Positions 1,477-40,329 of a stretch of 64,000 nucleotides of DNA are shown here, piece after piece. The stretch lies in the NCBI GenBank assembly GCA_026415135.1, contig JAOAHS010000037.1, positions 62,001 through 126,000 of the forward strand. The letters are read 5' to 3'. Every line of letters begins with the position of its first letter. Positions within the stretch are counted from its first letter, which is position 1. Below the pieces are notes generated by a model that was not told where the DNA came from, did no database searches, and saw only the letters and a list, made by a program, of their open reading frames with translations. This stretch comes from Calditerrivibrio sp. Lineage in GTDB: Bacteria > Chrysiogenota > Deferribacteres > Deferribacterales > Calditerrivibrionaceae. Position numbers and translations under genes: made by a program.

Positions 1477-2904
1477 TTAAACGATCATATATTTAACTAT
1501 ATTTATAAAGAATGTTGGAAACACACCTATTACTAACACGAATATCACCGCAAGTAGCGAAGCTATAAAGCTCGCTGGCTTCATCTCCAAGGACACCTCA
1601 TACTCCGGCTCCCTGAAGTACATGAAAATTGTCACCCTCATGTAGTAGTAACATGCTATTACACTGTTTATTACACCAATTATAGCAAGCCATATCAGTC
1701 CACTTTTTAAAGCTGCCGTAAATATATAAAATTTACCCATAAATCCAGCAAGGGGTGGAATACCTGCAAGGGAGAACATAAATATAAGCATCGCAAGGGC
1801 AGCCATTGGATATTTCTTACCTATCCCTGCAAAGCTCTCAATCCTTTCATCTTCTATCATACCTTTATTCTTAAGGAGAGAAAGTATCGTAAAAGCTCCA
1901 ATATTCATAAAGCCATAAACCATAGCATAAAAGGCTATAGCCTGATAACCAAGCTCATTTAGTGATACAACGCCTATGAGCATGTAACCTGCATGGGAGA
2001 TAGCAGAATAAGCCAACATCCTTTTGACATTGTTTTGAGCTAATGCCACTAAATTACCATAGGTCATTGTAATAACAGCTAAAATCGAGAAAAACATCTG
2101 CCATTGGGCAGCAGCTGGCTCCAGGGCAATCCATACGAATCTTACAATTGCACCCATCGCAGCAGCCTTTGGTGCAACTGTCATAAAGCCGGTAGCTGGT
2201 GTAGGTGCCCCTGTGTAAACATCTGGAGCCCACATATGGAATGGTACAGCAGATATCTTAAATGCTAACCCCGCAAGCATCATAATCATGCCAAGCTTGA
2301 TATTAAAATTAGCTGCTCCATTTGCTTTGATCATATTTGCAATATCCACATACTTTGTAGATCCTGTATAACCATATATGTAGGACAATCCAAAAAGGAA
2401 AATCGCTGATGAAAAAGCACCTATAATGAAATATTTTAACCCTGATTCGTTAGACTTAAGATTCCTCTTCTCAAAACCAGCTAAGATGTACATGGATATC
2501 GCCATTGTCTCCATACCAGCATAGAGTACCGATAGATCAGTAGCGCTTACCATAAACATCATGCCAACAATACTAAAGAACATGATGGTAAAAAATTCTC
2601 CTTTAAGTATATCCCTATCCCTGAGATAATCCACTGACCCCAATGTACTCATAATATATGCGATAGCAAATACACAGAAGAACGCAAAGGAGTACATATC
2701 CCATACCAATGTCTGACCAAACCCAAAAATCTTAAATCCACCCACCGGTATAGAGGCAAGAACAGCTACTATGATAAAAAATATTCCAAAATAACCAACA
2801 CCAGATTTACTATTTTTACCTGCAATTATATCTATGACAATCAGTATCAGACCAAAAATCGTCATCAGAAGTTCAGGCATTATTGAAACTAAGTTACTTA
2901 TCAT
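1477..2904 (-). CDS. nuoN: NADH-quinone oxidoreductase subunit N
   Basis: 475 residues with about 14 membrane helices, an antiporter-like proton-pumping subunit of complex I in the inner membrane. Family hallmarks seen are the conserved Glu on TM5 (VLYAGMETMAISMYIL), the Lys-bearing core helix (GLAFKISAVPFHMWAPDVYTG) and VKRMLAYSAISHAGYM. The length matches NuoN (about 480). The start follows GGAGG with good spacing. It lies 12 bases after nuoM and 8 bases before the ferritin-like gene. Confidence 0.96.
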   Translation of the reverse strand: MISNLVSIMPELLMTIFGLILIVIDIIAGKNSKSGVGYFGIFFIIVAVLASIPVGGFKIFGFGQTLVWDMYSFAFFCVFAIAYIMSTLGSVDYLRDRDILKGEFFTIMFFSIVGMMFMVSATDLSVLYAGMETMAISMYILAGFEKRNLKSNESGLKYFIIGAFSSAIFLFGLSYIYGYTGSTKYVDIANMIKANGAANFNIKLGMIMMLAGLAFKISAVPFHMWAPDVYTGAPTPATGFMTVAPKAAAMGAIVRFVWIALEPAAAQWQMFFSILAVITMTYGNLVALAQNNVKRMLAYSAISHAGYMLIGVVSLNELGYQAIAFYAMVYGFMNIGAFTILSLLKNKGMIEDERIESFAGIGKKYPMAALAMLIFMFSLAGIPPLAGFMGKFYIFTAALKSGLIWLAIIGVINSVIACYYYMRVTIFMYFREPEYEVSLEMKPASFIASLLAVIFVLVIGVFPTFFINIVKYMIV

Positions 2905-2916
2905 ATCTGCCCTCCT

Positions 2917-4416
2917 CTACTTCATTGATACACTTACTGCATTAATCTGTTCCACAAGAGCTTTAACAGATTCATGCATGTACGATGTAAACGTCTCTGG
3001 GTATAAACCTGTCCAGAATACCACAATTATCAGCGGCATCATGTAAAATACCTCTCTTACATTCATGTCTTCAAGGTCATGTAGATTGGGATTGACGGTC
3101 TGGAAAAACACCCTTTGATACATCCAGAGCATATAAACGGCCGAAACAATCACACCCAAAGCTGCAAGACCAGCATAAGTGGGAAACGCTTTAAATGCAC
3201 CCACCAATACCAAAAATTCACCCACGAAACCGCCCATACTTGGCAACGCCACAGAAGCCATAGTAAATATCAAAAATACTGTGGCATACACAGGGACTTT
3301 AACTGCTATACCACCATAATCTGCGATTAACCTTGTATGTGTCCTTTCATAGATAAGGCCTATCAGCAAGAAGAGAGCTCCTGTTATGATACCATGGTTA
3401 AACATCTGTAATATGCCACCCTCTATACCAGACTGATTAAAGGCATATATACCCAACGTAACAAAACCCATATGACTTACTGAGGAATACGCAACCAGTT
3501 TTTTCACATCTTCCTGAACCATCGCTACAAGTCCACCATAAATAATAGCAATGACAGATAGTATAGCAATCAGTGGAACAAACTTTATCGATGCAATCGG
3601 TGTAATAGGTAAACAGAATCTTAAAAATCCATAAGTACCCATCTTAAGCAACACACCAGCAAGGATCACAGAACCCGCTGTCGGAGCTTCCACGTGGGCA
3701 TCTGGCAACCATGTATGGAATGGGAACATCGGAACCTTTATGGCAAAACCAAAGAAAAAGGCAAGGAACACAATTATCTGGAACTCTATTGGGAACTTAG
3801 CACCCAAAGCAGATATCTTTAATATATCAAACGTATACTCCCCTGTCATGCTTCCATACTTAAAGTACAGTGCGATAATGGCAAGTAGCATGAACACAGA
3901 GCCAGCAAGTGTATAAAGAAAGAATTTCACAGCAGCATAAACCCTTCTCTGACCACCCCAAACTCCTATTATAAGGTACATTGGGATCAGCATAGCCTCC
4001 CAGAATATGTAAAATAGGAAGAAATCAAGGGCACAGAATACACCCACCATCGCAGCTTCCAGTATCAACATCGACACATAGAACTCTTTCTGCCTCTTTT
4101 CAATATATGTAAATGAAGCCAATATTGAAATAGCTGACAAAAACGTCGTGAGAAACACCATTAAAATAGATATACCATCTACACCAAGGTAGTAGTCTAT
4201 ATTCAATGATCTGATCCAATAGTATCTTTCTACAAATTGCATACCTGCTTCACTTTTGTTAAAGTTTGTCATAAGTGGAATAGTAAGAATAAACTCTATC
4301 ACACTTGCAACAAAGGCACTCCACATTGCAAATTTACCGCTTTTACTAAATATCAGTATAAATACGGCTGCAACAACCGGGAAGAAAATCAGTATCGATA
4401 ATATATTATCCATCAT
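2917..4416 (-). CDS. nuoM: NADH-quinone oxidoreductase subunit M
   Basis: 499 residues with about 14 membrane helices, the middle antiporter-like proton-translocating subunit of complex I. Diagnostic segments are FYIFWEAMLIPMYLIIG (the conserved Glu), FAIKVPMFPFHTWLPDAHVE and VKKLVAYSSVSHMGFVTLG. The ATG at 4416 is preceded by AGGAGG. A second Met follows directly, so the start is uncertain by one codon. It sits 10 bases downstream of nuoL. Confidence 0.96.
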   Translation of the reverse strand: MMDNILSILIFFPVVAAVFILIFSKSGKFAMWSAFVASVIEFILTIPLMTNFNKSEAGMQFVERYYWIRSLNIDYYLGVDGISILMVFLTTFLSAISILASFTYIEKRQKEFYVSMLILEAAMVGVFCALDFFLFYIFWEAMLIPMYLIIGVWGGQRRVYAAVKFFLYTLAGSVFMLLAIIALYFKYGSMTGEYTFDILKISALGAKFPIEFQIIVFLAFFFGFAIKVPMFPFHTWLPDAHVEAPTAGSVILAGVLLKMGTYGFLRFCLPITPIASIKFVPLIAILSVIAIIYGGLVAMVQEDVKKLVAYSSVSHMGFVTLGIYAFNQSGIEGGILQMFNHGIITGALFLLIGLIYERTHTRLIADYGGIAVKVPVYATVFLIFTMASVALPSMGGFVGEFLVLVGAFKAFPTYAGLAALGVIVSAVYMLWMYQRVFFQTVNPNLHDLEDMNVREVFYMMPLIIVVFWTGLYPETFTSYMHESVKALVEQINAVSVSMK

Positions 4417-33896: not shown

Positions 33897-34611
33897 ATGA
33901 AAAAAAGATTACCCATAGGTGAGTTCAACATCGCAAACCTCATCAATGATGGTTTTTTATACGTGGATAAGACGCAATTTGTATATAAGCTATTAACATC
34001 TTCCAAGTATTACTTCCTTTCTTGCCTCCACCGGTTTGGAAAATCTTTGTTTGTATCCACACTGGAGCAGGTCTTTAAAGGGAACAAAGATCTTTTTAAG
34101 GGGCTATGGATATATGAGTCAGGTTATGATTGGGGATTTTATCCAGTTGTAAAAATAGACTTTAATCAGATTTAAGAGTTTTTCTAAGGATGAGTACAAT
34201 GTTTATACGAAGATATATGATAAGTTATCGGTGGGTGATGTGGCTGGATTTATTTCTGTTGTAAGTTCGATATTTGCATTTATCCCTTATGAGGAAGGTA
34301 TTAGGTTGAATGAGGGGAGTTTCCATACGTTGTTTTACCTTATGTTATCAGCAGGTGGTTTACCAGCAAGGAGTGAGGTGCTAAACTACAGTGGTAGGAT
34401 AGATATGGTATTGGAGATGAGGGATAAGGTATATATCTTTGAGTTTAAGTGTAATCAGAGTGCAGAGGTTGCTCTAAACCAGATAAAAGAAAGAGACTGC
34501 CATAGACAGTATCTACATAGTGGTAAGAATATCTATCTTGTGGGTATAAATTTTGTTGTTCAGAAAAGAAATATAGAGGACTATAAAGTTACTTTTATAT
34601 ATCCAAGTTAG
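33897..34611 (+). pseudogene. Remnant of an AAA-ATPase-like / PD-(D/E)XK nuclease-like gene
   Basis: Two fragments of one family lie in different frames. The first (33897-34175) has the N-terminal PIGEFNIANLINDGFLYVDK and a P-loop variant, LHRFGKSLF, and stops after IDFNQI. The second is open from about 34168 and ends at 34611. It carries EGSFHTLFYLML and the C-terminal nuclease-like motif GRIDMVLEMRDKVYIFEFK, with the Asp and Glu-x-Lys retained. Intact members are about 500-560 residues; some 270-300 central codons are missing and the frame shifts at the joint. A short GTG-started product (34231-34611) is possible but no ribosome site is obvious. Confidence 0.8.
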
Positions 34612-34700: not shown

Positions 34701-35399
34701 TTATTCTTGATTAGTTTGTATTTCCCAGCTAACAGAAGATACACTCGATTCAAGACTTAGTCTCGATACTACATCTTCCAAAATTGTTTGAGCATGAATA
34801 TTTGCTATAACCTCTGCCTTTATACATACCTTTTTACCTTCATCTATATCTTCACTGTGAAGACTTCTTAGTAGTAAATGACTTGGAGCCAACATTTGAA
34901 CCAACAGTGTTCGTAAGTGTAATTCACCCTCTGGCAAACATTTTAGTTTTACAATGTATATCTGTTCTAATTCATTAGCGCCTTTTCCGAAACGATCTAT
35001 ATAAATTGCAATAGGCCTAAGTAGTATGTTACTCAATAAAACCAGAATTGTTGTTGCCACTGCTGCATATGTGTGTCCTGAACCAGCTAATACACCTACA
35101 GATGCTGAGCACCAAAGGGTTGCTGCTGTATTTAACCCACGAATTCCAGAACTTTCCCGAATAATTAAGCCAGCACCTAGAAAGCCTATTCCAGAAACAA
35201 CCTGTGCTGCAATACGTGTTGGGCTATTTTCACCTTCTACCAAAGTAGTTAGTATTACGAAGGCAGCAGAACCAAGTGAAACCAAGGTATTGGTTCTTAA
35301 CCCTGCAGCTCTCTGTCTTATTTGGCGTTCCAAGCCTATCAGAATACCAAGTCCTAATGCAGTTAAAAGGTTTGTAAGAACATTTAGATTAAAAAACAT
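34701..35399 (-). CDS. mgtC: MgtC/SapB-family protein
   Basis: 232 residues. The N-terminal hydrophobic domain of about five helices carries LGILIGLERQIRQRAAGLRT and GIGFLGAGLIIRESSGIRGL, the MgtC signature. The C-terminal part of about 90 residues is a soluble ACT-like domain. MgtC proteins are linked to growth in low Mg2+ and to modulation of the F-type ATPase in pathogens. It follows mgtA by 24 bases with AAGGGG upstream and is followed by a terminator, so the two form one unit. Confidence 0.92.
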   Translation of the reverse strand: MFFNLNVLTNLLTALGLGILIGLERQIRQRAAGLRTNTLVSLGSAAFVILTTLVEGENSPTRIAAQVVSGIGFLGAGLIIRESSGIRGLNTAATLWCSASVGVLAGSGHTYAAVATTILVLLSNILLRPIAIYIDRFGKGANELEQIYIVKLKCLPEGELHLRTLLVQMLAPSHLLLRSLHSEDIDEGKKVCIKAEVIANIHAQTILEDVVSRLSLESSVSSVSWEIQTNQE

Positions 35400-35423: not shown

Positions 35424-38069
35424 TTAAAGCCAAGTTTTAAATCTTTTAATATAAATAGTTTTTACCGTTTGAGTTAGGAGCATGTAAGAGCCAAGTATCA
35501 AAACAAGCCAGATGAAATATGTTGGTGGAAGAGGCTGTAAACCTATGGAAGCGCCAAAGTGGGAAAAAGGTATGATTATACCTGTGAAAACTATTAAGCT
35601 AGTCATTATCATTACAGGGGTAGAGGCCCGGCTTTGAATGAAGGGTATCTTTTCAGTCCTTATCATGTGTACAATAAGTGTTTGAGAAAGTAATCCTTCG
35701 ATAAACCACCCTGACTGGAAAAGTGACTGTACTTCTGGGGAATTAGCTTTAAAGACATACCACATTACCAAATAGGTAACAATATCAAAAATGGAACTAA
35801 TAGGGCCTATCCAAATCATAAATCTAGCTATATCATCTGCTATCCATTGACGTGGTTTTTTAAGGTACTCTTCATCCATTGTATCCCATGGGATAGATGT
35901 TTGAGAGATATCATAACATAAATTCTGTACTAATAGGTGCACTGGCAACATGGGCAAAAATGGTAAAAACGCACTTGCTGTAAGTACGCTAAAGACATTG
36001 CCAAAATTTGAACTAGCGGTCATCTTTATATATTTAATAATATTACCAAAAACTTTACGTCCCTCAACTACACCTTCTTCTAATACCAATAGACTTTTTT
36101 CCAAAAGGATAATATCAGCTGATTCTTTTGCAATATCTACTGCAGAATCAACTGAGATACCAACATCTGCGTCTCTTAAGGCAATTGCATCATTGATACC
36201 ATCACCGAGAAAACCCACTGTGTGACCTTTTTGCTGTAGTGCCCTAATGATTCTAGATTTGTGATATGGGGTAAGTTTTGCAAAAACTGTTGTATTCTCA
36301 GCTCGTTGGGCAAGCTCTTCGTCACTTAGCATATCTATTTCATGACCCAACATGATATTATCTACAGTTAGCCCAACATCTTTGCAAACTTTTTTTGTTA
36401 CAATTTCGTTGTCACCTGTAAGTATTTTTACACTTACTCCATATTCCCTTAAAGCTTTGATTGCGGGAAATGCTGATTCTTTAGGGGGATCGAAAAATCC
36501 TATAAATCCCATTAAAACGAGGTTACTTTCATCAGCTATACTGAAGATATTTTCGTTAGGTACATCATTTTTCTGGGCAACAGCTATTACACGTAGTCCA
36601 TCTTTATTGAGTTCTTTTACTTTTTTTAAGGCTTCTTCTTTTATACTTTCCGTCAAAGGTATAACTTCCCCCTGATATTCCACAAGGGTACAAACAGATA
36701 GCATTTCTTCCACTGCACCTTTTGTGACAAGTTGACGTTTTCCAGCTCCATTTTCAAGTACAACGGACATTCTTTTGCGTGTAAAATCAAATGGTATTTC
36801 ATCTACTTTTTTATATATATGTTCTATACCTTCAAGCCCTTCCTCTCTCCCTTTTTGTAAAATGGCTACATCAAGAAGGTTTTTAAGTCCAGTTTGATAA
36901 TAGCTATTAAGCCATGCGTGTCGTAATACCCTTTTTTCCTCGTTACCATGAACATCCAGGTATTTCATCAATACCACTTTGTCTAAAGTAAGGGTACCAG
37001 TTTTATCGGTGCAGAGGATATCCATAGCTCCAAAGTTTTGAATGGAATTTAGTCTTTTAACAATAGTCTTTTTTTTAGACATTGTTACTGCACCTTTTGC
37101 AAGATTGGTGGTTACAACCATTGGAAGCATCTCTGGGGTTAAACCTACTGCTATGGCAAGAGCAAAAAGTATAGCTTCAAACCAGTCTCCTTTTGTAAGA
37201 CCGTTTATGAAAAAAACAATAGGAACCATAAAGGCCATGAATTTGATTAAGAGCCAACTGACACTGTTCACTCCTTTGTCAAAACTTGTAATAGCACGTC
37301 TGCCAATTATTGATTGGGCTACAGAACCGAAATAAGTGTTACTACCTGTTGCCACAACTACACCAATAGCTGTGCCGCTTACTACATTTGTTCCTAATAA
37401 GCAGATGTTTTCTAATTCTGTTATGTTAATTTTTGAAGTAGGATATATTTTTGCTTCAGTTCGTTTTTCTACAGGTTCGGATTCTCCTGTTAATGTTGAT
37501 TGACTCACAAATAAGTCTTTTGATGAAATCAGACGCATATCTGCTGGTATCATATCTCCAGCGGAAAGATATATTATATCACCAGGTACTATATCCTTCA
37601 TCAAAATCTCTTTTTTCCCAGAATCTCTGCGAAGTACGGTGGTGGTTACTCTAACCATCTCTTTTAGTTTTTCTGCTGATTTATTGGATTTATATTCCTG
37701 AAAAAAGCGTAAAAAACCACTGATTGTAACCATTAAAGAAATAACTATTAAAGTCTTGTAGCTTCTATCTTCAGGGTGTGCAAATATGATATCTGTGAAA
37801 AGAGAAACGGTAGCAATGGCTAACAAAATTATGTTAAAAGGGTTTATAAATGATTTTATCAGGTGAATGTACCATGGAGTAGGTTTTTCTTGGGTGATTA
37901 CGTTATCACCATATTGCTCGAGTCTTTTTAAGGCTTCTTCATCAGATAAACCTGTTACGTCTGTTTGTAGTTTTTTTAGAACATCTTCTAAAGATTGTTG
38001 GCTATAAAAGACAAGCTTATCTTTTAGGTTATTGCTCTCGTTAATTGGGTTTAAGAATCTATTTTTCAT
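35424..38069 (-). CDS. mgtA: Magnesium-translocating P-type ATPase
   Basis: 881 residues. Type IIIB P-type ATPase importing Mg2+ through the inner membrane. The phosphorylated Asp lies in CTDKTGTLTLDKV (about residue 353); TGES (LTGESEPVEKR), KGAVEEML and GDGINDAIALRDADVGIS mark the actuator, nucleotide and hinge segments. An N-terminal cytoplasmic region precedes about ten membrane helices. AGGAGG is nine bases before the ATG. Its leader is long and structured (38070-38398), and mgtC lies downstream. The symbol mgtA versus mgtB is a matter of convention. Confidence 0.94.
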   Translation of the reverse strand: MKNRFLNPINESNNLKDKLVFYSQQSLEDVLKKLQTDVTGLSDEEALKRLEQYGDNVITQEKPTPWYIHLIKSFINPFNIILLAIATVSLFTDIIFAHPEDRSYKTLIVISLMVTISGFLRFFQEYKSNKSAEKLKEMVRVTTTVLRRDSGKKEILMKDIVPGDIIYLSAGDMIPADMRLISSKDLFVSQSTLTGESEPVEKRTEAKIYPTSKINITELENICLLGTNVVSGTAIGVVVATGSNTYFGSVAQSIIGRRAITSFDKGVNSVSWLLIKFMAFMVPIVFFINGLTKGDWFEAILFALAIAVGLTPEMLPMVVTTNLAKGAVTMSKKKTIVKRLNSIQNFGAMDILCTDKTGTLTLDKVVLMKYLDVHGNEEKRVLRHAWLNSYYQTGLKNLLDVAILQKGREEGLEGIEHIYKKVDEIPFDFTRKRMSVVLENGAGKRQLVTKGAVEEMLSVCTLVEYQGEVIPLTESIKEEALKKVKELNKDGLRVIAVAQKNDVPNENIFSIADESNLVLMGFIGFFDPPKESAFPAIKALREYGVSVKILTGDNEIVTKKVCKDVGLTVDNIMLGHEIDMLSDEELAQRAENTTVFAKLTPYHKSRIIRALQQKGHTVGFLGDGINDAIALRDADVGISVDSAVDIAKESADIILLEKSLLVLEEGVVEGRKVFGNIIKYIKMTASSNFGNVFSVLTASAFLPFLPMLPVHLLVQNLCYDISQTSIPWDTMDEEYLKKPRQWIADDIARFMIWIGPISSIFDIVTYLVMWYVFKANSPEVQSLFQSGWFIEGLLSQTLIVHMIRTEKIPFIQSRASTPVMIMTSLIVFTGIIIPFSHFGASIGLQPLPPTYFIWLVLILGSYMLLTQTVKTIYIKRFKTWL

Positions 38070-38132
38070 TTTTATGAACCTCCTTTTGTAAGTATTTGAG
38101 TGATCGATTGTTTACACTTTTAAGCTTTAACG

Positions 38133-38155: not shown

Positions 38156-38262
38156 ACAAAAAGACAAAAAAATACTTCTTGTTGTTTCTAAAATTTCCCT
38201 TATTAAAGGAAATTGTTAAATGACCAGCAGTTTGTTCGGTTGATTTTTTTGCTTAGGCGGGG

Positions 38263-38367
38263 TTAGATTGACATCTTCAGTGATGCCAAATGGTAACCGG
38301 AATTGATATTTACCGAACACCTACTGGAATGTTTTGTGCTATAACTATCGTAAGGTCCCGATTCCAT
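38263..38367 (-). CDS. Putative 34-residue leader peptide upstream of mgtA
   Basis: An ATG at 38367 with GAGGTG nine bases upstream opens a 34-codon frame ending in TAA at 38263. The peptide begins MESGPYDSYSTKH and ends ASLKMSI; it is Ser/Tyr-rich with one Pro and one Cys, and has no membrane segment. It lies between the mgtA promoter and mgtA, in the position of the enterobacterial MgtL peptide, but shows no proline run like MgtL. Whether it is translated or merely falls within a structured RNA is open. Confidence 0.45.
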   Translation of the reverse strand: MESGPYDSYSTKHSSRCSVNINSGYHLASLKMSI

Positions 38368-38385
38368 TGACATCACCTCATTTTT
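38263..38385 (-). ncRNA. Candidate structured regulatory leader RNA of mgtA
   Basis: In minus-strand sense, GTGATGTCAATGG (38376-38364) is complementary to CCATTTGGCATCAC (38293-38280): 13 pairs with one G-U and one bulge, enclosing about 70 bases. The 9-mer GATGTCAAT recurs at 38275-38267, exactly 100 bases downstream, and its GATGTC can instead pair with the same GGCATC in a local hairpin with an ACTGAA loop. Inside the large stem, GGACCTTAC and GTAGGTGTTC can pair with one bulge and two wobbles. The first arm overlaps the ribosome site and start of the embedded ORF. I do not recognise the M-box core. The layout is seen; the regulatory role is inference. Confidence 0.5.
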
Positions 38386-38397
38386 AAAAGGTTTTAC

Positions 38398-38426
38398 TTC
38401 TTATATTTTAATTAATCAAATGTCAA
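38398..38426 (-). promoter_or_regulatory. Predicted promoter of mgtA-mgtC
   Basis: TTGACA (38426-38421) on the minus strand is followed by an AT-rich spacer and overlapping -10 candidates: TAAGAA at 17 bases or TATAAG at 15 bases. Transcription would begin near 38390, about 320 bases before mgtA, which leaves room for the leader element. Confidence 0.6.
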
Positions 38427-38622: not shown

Positions 38623-40329
38623 ATGGAGAGATATAAGAGTTTAATTGAAAGTCTAAATTTAAAGTACGATCCGAGTGTTGATGGGATTACCTATGTGGCA
38701 AAATTCCATTACAAAGGTAACAGGGGATTTTTTCATATTTTTTGTGATACTTTTAATATACTTTTAATAAAGAGTATTCACAAAGATTTTGTCAGAGTTT
38801 TGTCTGGTGTAGTCGATTTAGATGACAGGATATTATCCAGAATATCTGATTTTCTATCAAATATCGAACGAAACCACTCTTTTGATCTGATGGTAGAGTT
38901 TTCGATCTTTGGGGATGATTTTATAATAAAGGGGTTAAAAGATGATTTAGCTACTAAAGATATGATACCTTTTGGGGAGATAAAAAGTCCTTTAACAGGT
39001 GTGGAATATAGTCTTTTTAAAGATTCATCCATCGAAAAAAATCTCTATTCGAACACGATCTTTTCGGGTTTTTTCCCTGATACGCTGACATATTTTACTT
39101 CAAGTTTGTTGAAGAAACATTCTGAGATTTTTTCTCCACTTTTTGTACATGCAAACTTTAAAACATATACCCCTTCAATAAAAATTATATTTAATAAGCC
39201 CTATTTTAATATGAGAAATGCTTCTATATGGGGTGCTACACTGAATGTTGGAGATTATTTTTATGATATAAATTTTGCACAACATCTTTTTGTAAAAAAA
39301 GATTATAAAAAAATCCCAAAACTTGATTCGTATGAGTTGAATATCACTTTTGATGAAATTAAAAGTATTCTTGATGAGATCAGAGAATACTTGGTGAGTT
39401 TTGATGATGAAAAGATATTTTCCGAACACTATACACAGCTATTGTCGCTTATTGTTATGTGCGAGGAGATGAATTTTCTACTTTTGATGGGAAGATTATG
39501 TTTTCTTCTTGATACATTTAGAGACCTGGATAACACATTGATGTTTATTTATAAAACGAGAAGGCACAACCCTTTGTCCAATTCAAAAATAAAAGTTTGT
39601 GAATACTTTGATCTCAACACTGAAGTTAGATTCGTCGAAATACCATCATTCGAGCCTGTAGATGTAGAAGATTTTCTAAAAGAGATCTCATCTATTAAGA
39701 GAGTTTTTTATAAGAAAAAGATCTTGGAAGCAGTGGAACATTTGCATAATGGATTGGATGTCAGGGATGAATTATTTGTAATAAGAAACAATCTAATGAT
39801 AAAAACAAAGGAGATAGTTGATAAGATTGCTTCCAGATTGATGGAAAATATGCAAATAAAGAAAAAAGATGATATCTACTATCTTGAGCTGGATGAAATA
39901 AAACAGATTCTTGATAACAATTTTTACGGGAATGTAGCTTTTAATATCTATTTTAGAAAGGCCCAGATGGATCGATTTAAGATACAGTTTGTACCACCTG
40001 AGATCTATGAAGGGGATATAGACAGGGTAGAGGAGATTGCTGATAATCTTGTAAAGAGGTTATTTGCTTTGAATACCCATAAGACGGTGACTTTTTTCTA
40101 TAAGGATGATGTGAAAAACTATAAGATATTACCATCTTCTTCAATAAGTTATGTAGATGAAATAATAAGTTTTGACGGTGTCATAGTAAACAATGTCCCT
40201 TTGTTTTCCCATTTTATGGAATTTTGTGCGCTTCAAGGGAAAGCTATCTGGTCTGGGATAAGAATACCTGATAAGGTTTTTAGTGGTAGAGATTTGATAC
40301 TAAAAAAGGGGGAGATCATTGTTAAGTAA
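38623..40329 (+). CDS. PEP-utilising-enzyme-like protein with swivelling domain, lacking ATP-grasp
   Basis: 568 residues, no signal peptide. I recognise only faint family features. Residues about 370-460 resemble the linker of rifampicin phosphotransferase/PEP synthase proteins, with a helical part then DDIYYLELDEIKQIL and VPPEIYEGD. The last 70 residues resemble the PEP-utilising mobile domain (DGVIVNN, then LFSHFMEFCALQGKA, ending LKKGEIIVK), where His530 of the SH pair would be the phospho-accepting His. The N-terminal ATP-grasp nucleotide-binding domain of such enzymes is not visible. It overlaps the ADP-ribosylglycohydrolase gene by 11 bases, so the two are coupled. The function is unknown and the domain assignment is inference. 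Confidence 0.6.
   Translation: MERYKSLIESLNLKYDPSVDGITYVAKFHYKGNRGFFHIFCDTFNILLIKSIHKDFVRVLSGVVDLDDRILSRISDFLSNIERNHSFDLMVEFSIFGDDFIIKGLKDDLATKDMIPFGEIKSPLTGVEYSLFKDSSIEKNLYSNTIFSGFFPDTLTYFTSSLLKKHSEIFSPLFVHANFKTYTPSIKIIFNKPYFNMRNASIWGATLNVGDYFYDINFAQHLFVKKDYKKIPKLDSYELNITFDEIKSILDEIREYLVSFDDEKIFSEHYTQLLSLIVMCEEMNFLLLMGRLCFLLDTFRDLDNTLMFIYKTRRHNPLSNSKIKVCEYFDLNTEVRFVEIPSFEPVDVEDFLKEISSIKRVFYKKKILEAVEHLHNGLDVRDELFVIRNNLMIKTKEIVDKIASRLMENMQIKKKDDIYYLELDEIKQILDNNFYGNVAFNIYFRKAQMDRFKIQFVPPEIYEGDIDRVEEIADNLVKRLFALNTHKTVTFFYKDDVKNYKILPSSSISYVDEIISFDGVIVNNVPLFSHFMEFCALQGKAIWSGIRIPDKVFSGRDLILKKGEIIVK

Follow-up and report, generated by a model that had tools for sequence, protein, structure and literature searches.

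Two mutually exclusive RNA folds around a leader ORF suggest translation-controlled expression of mgtA in Calditerrivibrio sp.

What could control a magnesium transporter gene whose leader is highly structured and lacks an M-box? This question is raised by the mgtA locus of Calditerrivibrio sp., located in a window of 64,000 nucleotides, the whole stretch of DNA that was analysed. An initial annotation had proposed that positions 38263-38385 form a two-state regulatory leader of mgtA. The observation as a whole was confirmed by our analysis, and its interpretation is partly supported. The operon consists of the following genes.

35424-38069, minus strand: mgtA, encoding an 881-aa Mg2+-translocating P-type ATPase (TIGR01524 / NF011702; TIGR01524 score of 1325 bits)
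34701-35399, minus strand: mgtC-family gene directly behind mgtA (PF02308 and PF21770)

Several neighbouring genes were recorded in passing. The rpmE gene (ribosomal protein L31, NF000612; 33539-33766, minus strand) lies about 0.9 kb behind mgtC on the same strand, possibly by coincidence; L31 has been reported to offset the destabilisation of ribosomes by acidic residues (PMC8092293). Between mgtC and rpmE, two short plus-strand ORFs (33897-34611) resemble pieces of one broken gene and had no NCBIfam match. Upstream, a 568-aa protein without Pfam match (38623-40329, plus strand) adjoins an ADP-ribosylglycohydrolase (PF03747), and in congeners a similar ORF follows a homologue of this enzyme.

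The leader of mgtA contains the elements listed below.

38421-38426, minus strand: TTGACA, a possible, weakly supported -35 element, with TATAAG at 38405-38400 after a spacer of 15 bases
38372-38379, minus strand: Shine-Dalgarno sequence (SD) of the leader ORF, GAGGTGAT, with a spacing of 8 bases from GAGG to ATG
38263-38367, minus strand: leader ORF (uORF), recognised by its frame, SD-matched ATG and an N-terminal pattern common to leader ORFs of other mgtA genes
38366-38374, minus strand: 9-mer GATGTCAAT, copy 1
38267-38275, minus strand: 9-mer GATGTCAAT, copy 2, 99 bases downstream of copy 1 and in the same frame (33 codons)
38190-38214, minus strand: A+U-rich hairpin between the uORF and mgtA, found by folding; not a canonical intrinsic terminator
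38079-38084, minus strand: SD of mgtA, AGGAGG

The uORF, overlooked in the initial annotation, spans the whole element: the interval 38263-38385 is the uORF together with its ribosome site. Assigned from the ORF list and the ATG fitting the SD, it starts with MESGPYDSYSTKHSSRCSV, comprises 34 codons and ends with a TAA stop codon (38265-38263). The encoded peptide, MESGPYDSYSTKHSSRCSVNINSGYHLASLKMSI, had no match in Pfam or NCBIfam. It contains 9 serine residues in 34 and begins with Met-Glu-Ser-Gly-Pro-Tyr-Asp-Ser(AGU), which places acidic residues at positions 2 and 7 and a proline at position 5. The stop codon is separated from the mgtA start by about 195 bases, in which terminator scans detected no intrinsic terminator. 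The element had been placed between a promoter and a Mg2+ transporter; the identity of the transporter stands, whereas the promoter is weakly supported, and a promoter consensus scan of the leader found sites no more common than in shuffled sequences. The G+C content of the element (0.39) exceeds that of its flanks (0.22-0.26), as had been noticed. The uORF is likely translated.

Folding of the leader RNA revealed three helices.

38358-38377, minus strand: 5' arm of H1, covering the SD, the start codon and codons 2-4 (duplex and fold)
38279-38300, minus strand: 3' arm of H1 in the distal uORF, CCGGTTACCATTTGGCATCACT (duplex and fold)
38311-38328, minus strand: 5' arm of H2 in the middle of the uORF, TCCAGTAGGTGTTCGGTA (duplex versus shuffles, ensemble probability)
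38223-38241, minus strand: 3' arm of H2 behind the uORF stop, AACCGAACAAACTGCTGGT (duplex, ensemble)
38268-38289, minus strand: H3, a small hairpin with copy 2 of the 9-mer (fold)

The 13-pair interaction described initially, between GTGATGTCAATGG (38376-38364) and CCATTTGGCATCAC (38293-38280), exists and forms the core of the longer helix H1, which has 20 pairs. The 123-nt element folds at -34.8 kcal/mol, versus -23.0 +/- 3.2 kcal/mol for shuffled sequences (z = -3.74; 1 of 200 shuffles equally stable), and the duplex energy of the start region with the downstream segment is also lower than expected (z = -3.25; 1 of 100 shuffles). The accessibility of the uORF AUG is 0.01 as long as H1 stands, in agreement with the claim that one of the folds sequesters the upstream ribosome site. 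The 9-mer does recur, at a distance of 99 rather than 100 bases, and its second copy participates in the predicted short hairpin, TTGGCATC-ACTGAA-GATGTCAA (H3), which excludes H1. The main competitor of H1 is, however, not this hairpin but H2, inside which H3 sits. H2 was more stable than all of 100 shuffles (duplex z = -3.2) and reached an ensemble probability of 0.82 once both arms were made.

The behaviour of the helices was followed by calculations that represent equilibria, not kinetics, on a growing transcript and with ribosomes placed along the uORF. H1 had a probability of 0.93 until the RNA reached 38241; by 38221, H2 had displaced it (0.82 versus 0.01), with H3 inside H2. A ribosome modelled at the middle of the uORF or at its stop codon abolished H2, and H1 returned. 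H2 stood when the ribosome was placed at the start or on codon 6. Computationally, the leader has two exclusive folds that form in a defined order, one closing the uORF start and the other joining the middle of the uORF to the sequence behind its stop. Regulation of mgtA by uORF translation through H1 and H2 is likely.

Relatives of the leader were sought in other genomes. Comparison of the leader DNA with 60 related genomes returned just chance matches of 29-44 bases, and blastn and tblastn searches of the leader and its peptide against 87 loci gave nothing significant, although weak peptide matches (MDTGPS...) led to the pattern described below. No close homologue of the window leader was found, so the evidence for compensatory changes comes from alignments of other leaders. 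Helix H1, pairing the SD and start codon with the distal uORF, had z < -1.4 in every one of 15 leaders from clostridia and related Bacillota (Stouffer -12.0), versus a mean z of -0.19 for the equivalent control at mgtA's own start. This recurrence in clostridial mgtA leaders supports the proposal of a two-state leader with a sequestered ribosome site. H1 was sought in Bacteroidota leaders and rejected (mean z about 0). H2 was strong in leaders L011, L144, L153, L027, L015 and L057, with z values of -5.5, -6.1, -7.0 and -5.1 in several leaders, and absent by z-score in the clostridial leaders L017, L018, L022, L033 and L154; the pairing between the middle of the uORF and the post-stop segment, present in the window (z = -3.2), is therefore not universal in Bacillota leaders. 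Compensatory changes, named as a check in the initial annotation, were observed for H2 in alignment A2, where 96% of the cells are paired and both sides have changed in 4 pairs, versus 0.8 in shuffles (3 of 500). H1 is almost invariant in this alignment and showed none.

Leaders of the Bacilli indicate the probable sign of the regulation. A canonical intrinsic terminator follows the uORF in all seven of these leaders, and the middle of the uORF can pair with the 5' arm of the terminator (Stouffer -5.7 over 6); gaps in the Bacilli alignment, A3, were too uneven for pair counting. H2 would therefore be the antiterminating, ON state in these bacteria, and a ribosome leaving early would free the antiterminator, so that abortion of translation probably means ON, as in mgtL. 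In the Bacteroidota alignment A1 (L029, L032, L051, L053, L060 and others), codons 3-5 (CxGGT) look by eye complementary to an ACCxG motif that immediately follows the uORF stop. The two segments seem to change together, and a hairpin can enclose the start of mgtA.

The M-box core is absent, as first reported: the covariance model of the M-box (RF00380) had no match at gathering score in the window or in the whole genome, and a search of the window with Rfam 15 gave 0 matches at gathering score among 4227 families. An M-box is present at 11 of the 17 MgtA loci nearest to that of the window, and most of the nearest relatives have an M-box with a similar leader ORF right behind it; the window has the ORF without the M-box. 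Bacteroidota leaders also lack the M-box. Tandem leaders were seen in Bacilli, in the order M-box, its terminator, SD-led leader ORF, second intrinsic terminator and mgtA (L021 1432-1989, with a match to the M-box model; L057 2722-3001, L088 2755-3001 and L105-L107, with an M-box recognised by eye only).

Leader ORFs starting with M-[DE]-x-[GS]-[P/S/G]-S were found before mgtA in Bacillota, Bacteroidota and Alphaproteobacteria, and before mgtC in Bacteroidota. ORFs behind Bacillota M-boxes have a strong SD and encode MDDGGNS, MEVDGSS, MEAGSSS, MDGGGSS, MDTGSST, MEGSPSS, MDSSPSR and others. The Bacteroidota ORFs begin with MDTGPS, MDSGPS or MDAGPS, and those of two alphaproteobacterial loci with MDSYPS. 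The window shares the Bacillota features: a MESGP start, a strong SD, and H1 between the SD/start region and the distal uORF. Distinct SD-led short ORFs upstream of Bacillota mgtA were chosen by no criteria other than SD and length; D or E stood at codon 2 in 25 of 45 of them, versus 9 of 106 control ORFs (Fisher 1.5e-9), for a pattern noticed before being tested on partly the same loci. Residues 3-8 were G, S or P at 65% in these 25 ORFs and at 15% in controls. Counting near-copies, M[DE]xxP ORFs occurred upstream of 38 of 141 mgtA loci, versus 5 in all across three control regions per locus (5e-16). Counted by ORF, the pattern was present in 38 of 1249 upstream ORFs and 5 of 3047 control ORFs. 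These p-values overstate the significance, as related sequences are not independent; a stronger argument is the distribution of the pattern across phyla. ORFs of this kind are missing from some mgtA leaders.

Additional ORFs were observed at some of these loci. Leader ORFs of the same kind precede mgtC-family genes at three Bacteroidota loci (MDTGPS, MDTGPA or MDSGPE; L053 1242, L074 2057, L075 1353). An extra MDAGPSYSY ORF at L053 6549 (the same stretch is in L128) is followed, 0.8 kb on, by a long ORF of 400 aa that is not an obvious Mg2+ gene. In the alphaproteobacterial loci L084 (about 2346-3001) and L026 (2338-3001), the MDSYPS ORF is separated from mgtA by a second small ORF with a good SD, and additional small ORFs occupy the same interval in the Bacteroidota loci L050 and L052. 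A search for more MgtA in the order of the Bradyrhizobium seed genome returned the seed genome alone.

These comparisons bear on the possibility that the leader is an RNA switch proper, in which Mg2+ itself shifts the balance between H1 and H2 and the ORF is incidental. Two exclusive and stable folds do exist, but they belong to no M-box or other Rfam family, and no conserved RNA core was found across the leaders. What is conserved across phyla is the first codons of the ORF, even in Bacteroidota, which lack H1, and the D, G and P codons vary synonymously. Such a switch is thus unlikely. The initial annotation had left open Mg2+- or translation-dependent control: translation-dependent sensing is favoured, and direct sensing of Mg2+ by the RNA has no support here.

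The serine codons of the leader ORFs do not vary freely. Serine at codons 4-8 is encoded by AGT in 71 of 83 cases, versus 22% in mgtA of the same loci, and in 46 of 52 cases outside Bacteroidota. Serine at codon 6 is AGT in 35 of 37 cases, whereas serine at codon 3 lacks this bias. AGT at codon 6 is common but not universal, being found in 16 of 27 non-Bacteroidota leaders; in the window, codon 6 is TAC (Tyr) and AGT is at codon 8. The strong AGU bias across phyla would fit an attenuator whose Ser-rich peptide responds not to Mg2+ but to seryl-tRNA or some other translational stress; Salmonella mgtP, which senses charged tRNA in a Mg2+ operon, provides a precedent (PMC8092293). This explanation is slightly less probable still than the RNA switch: the leaders stand before Mg2+ genes, Ser is less constant than the Asp or Glu of codon 2, and codon 6 does not specify Ser in the window, L052 and L136.

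The phylogeny of MgtA raises the possibility of a relic, namely a leader transferred together with mgtA from a Bacillota donor, which then lost its M-box and its regulatory function. The window MgtA falls inside a Bacillota-dominated clade (support of 98), its nearest relative (71% identity) comes from a Thermoanaerobacteraceae bin, and MgtA is rare in the window's phylum (2 of 51 genomes); the leader has neither an M-box nor a terminator left. A clean empty site in congeners was considered and rejected: mgtA is not beside this neighbour there, but the flanks differ. Loss of function is improbable, since the SD, the ORF and all three helices (H1, H2, H3) are preserved, and the fold of the RNA is far more stable than those of shuffled sequences. 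Least probable is a small working protein encoded by the uORF, such as a regulator of MgtA, with the RNA folds of secondary importance, as proposed by the authors for the conserved and highly expressed uORF2 peptides of mycobacterial M-box leaders (PMC12810186), because the leader-ORF families share their first 5-8 residues only, range from 9 to 60 codons and differ in their C-termini.

The best explanation, to which we assign a probability of roughly 0.65, is that the element is a translation-controlled leader, or attenuator, of the mgtA-mgtC operon that works like enterobacterial mgtL and mgtQ. The ribosome would start the uORF at 38367. With enough Mg2+, it would read on and cover the middle of the uORF and then the stop codon, blocking H2; H1 would re-form behind it, the post-stop stretch would stay open, and mgtA expression would be reduced, the candidate steps being Rho, RNA decay or hindered translation of mgtA. 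At low Mg2+, the first residues, from Met-Glu to Ser(AGU), would destabilise the young nascent chain; early abortion would free the middle of the uORF, H2 would form with H3 inside, and mgtA would be expressed. Glu2/Asp4 of mgtL and Asp2/Glu5 of mgtQ make ribosomes abort, which increases expression of mgtA or mgtB (PMC11282234, PMC8092293), and on this analogy the signal is somewhat more probably Mg2+, acting through early instability of the ribosome, than another cue. The leader-ORF pattern, the AGT bias, the recurrence of H1 and H2, the Bacilli terminators, the occurrence of a leader before mgtC, and the grouping of MgtA with Bacillota argue for this attenuator. Against it stand the absence of an intrinsic terminator in the window leader, the rarity of MgtA in the phylum, the lack of H2 in some clostridial leaders, mgtA leaders devoid of such an ORF, the lack of a close homologue of the window leader, the invariance of H1 in alignment A2, and an early destabiliser milder than EPDP (codons 1-8 specify a single Pro and two acidic residues).

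Related leaders before magnesium genes in several phyla suggest that reading Mg2+ through a faltering ribosome is widespread among bacteria. More tentatively, and at less than even odds, the M-[DE]-x-[GS]-[PSG]-Ser(AGU) ORFs before mgtA or mgtC of Bacillota, Bacteroidota, Alphaproteobacteria and this genome may form one multi-phylum class, in which the ribosome, not the RNA, would read Mg2+, AGU codon identity and not only the amino acids would be part of the sensor, and the Bacillota tandem behind an M-box would provide two independent Mg2+ checks per leader. If the pattern holds, this would be a general bacterial device that has escaped notice: its ORFs are short and frequently left unannotated, and the neighbouring M-box seemed explanation enough. 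It makes testable the question of why distant phyla have the same first codons, down to AGU serine, before their Mg2+ genes, and the further question of whether they gauge Mg2+ by a common mechanism, early instability of the nascent chain. The window offers a natural case of the device alone, without M-box.

Among the closest known systems is mgtL of Escherichia coli and Salmonella: a short ORF between promoter and mgtA, with an acidic codon 2 and a proline codon 5, within mutually exclusive RNA folds (PMC11282234, PMC11552253). Glu2, Pro3, Asp4 and Pro5 of E. coli MgtL (EPDP; PMC11282234) fit the acidic-2 and Pro-5 positions. The window has several traits of a MgtL-type leader ORF, namely a short ORF that is preceded by a GAGG ribosome site and lies in the 5' leader of mgtA, a Mg2+ transporter gene, acidic residues and a proline in its first codons, and, computationally, overlap with exclusive structures (H1 versus H2 plus H3). 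Unlike mgtL, it has 34 codons, one early Pro rather than several, and AGU serine codons; H1 hides the SD of the uORF itself, a Rho or terminator step is only putative, and sequence homology is undetectable beyond the pattern. The mgtQ ORF of Salmonella, between mgtC and mgtB, is likewise an Asp2/Glu5-type abortive short ORF over alternative stem-loops controlling a Mg2+ transporter (PMC8092293), but it has 8 codons, lies inside the operon and acts on mgtB translation, whereas the window ORF is in the 5' leader of mgtA. Exclusive folds are described for both mgtA and corA leaders (PMC11552253); enterobacterial corL also combines a uORF with two such structures before a Mg2+ transporter, together with Rho, but it serves a different gene, has a UUG start and a single proline, and is likened by layout, not by sequence. 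The M-box (ykoK, RF00380) also regulates Mg2+ genes and directly precedes such leader ORFs in Bacillota; the window leader lacks it. A conserved M-box-linked uORF has been described in mycobacteria, where uORF2 has a conserved N-terminus and an invariant proline (PMC12810186), a likeness by description only. In the open-licence literature, where absence is weak evidence, we found such a family described in enterobacteria only and never behind the M-box of Bacillota, and nothing on leaders of this kind in Bacillota or Bacteroidota, on an M-box in tandem with a leader ORF that has a terminator of its own, or on the AGU bias. The initial annotation had called the leader an undescribed type, and no Rfam family indeed matches it; its working principle is nevertheless most like that of mgtL, mgtQ and corL. 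Since the ribosome-based Mg2+ leader-ORF principle is already known in enterobacteria, the window leader fits better as a variant of it than as a new type.
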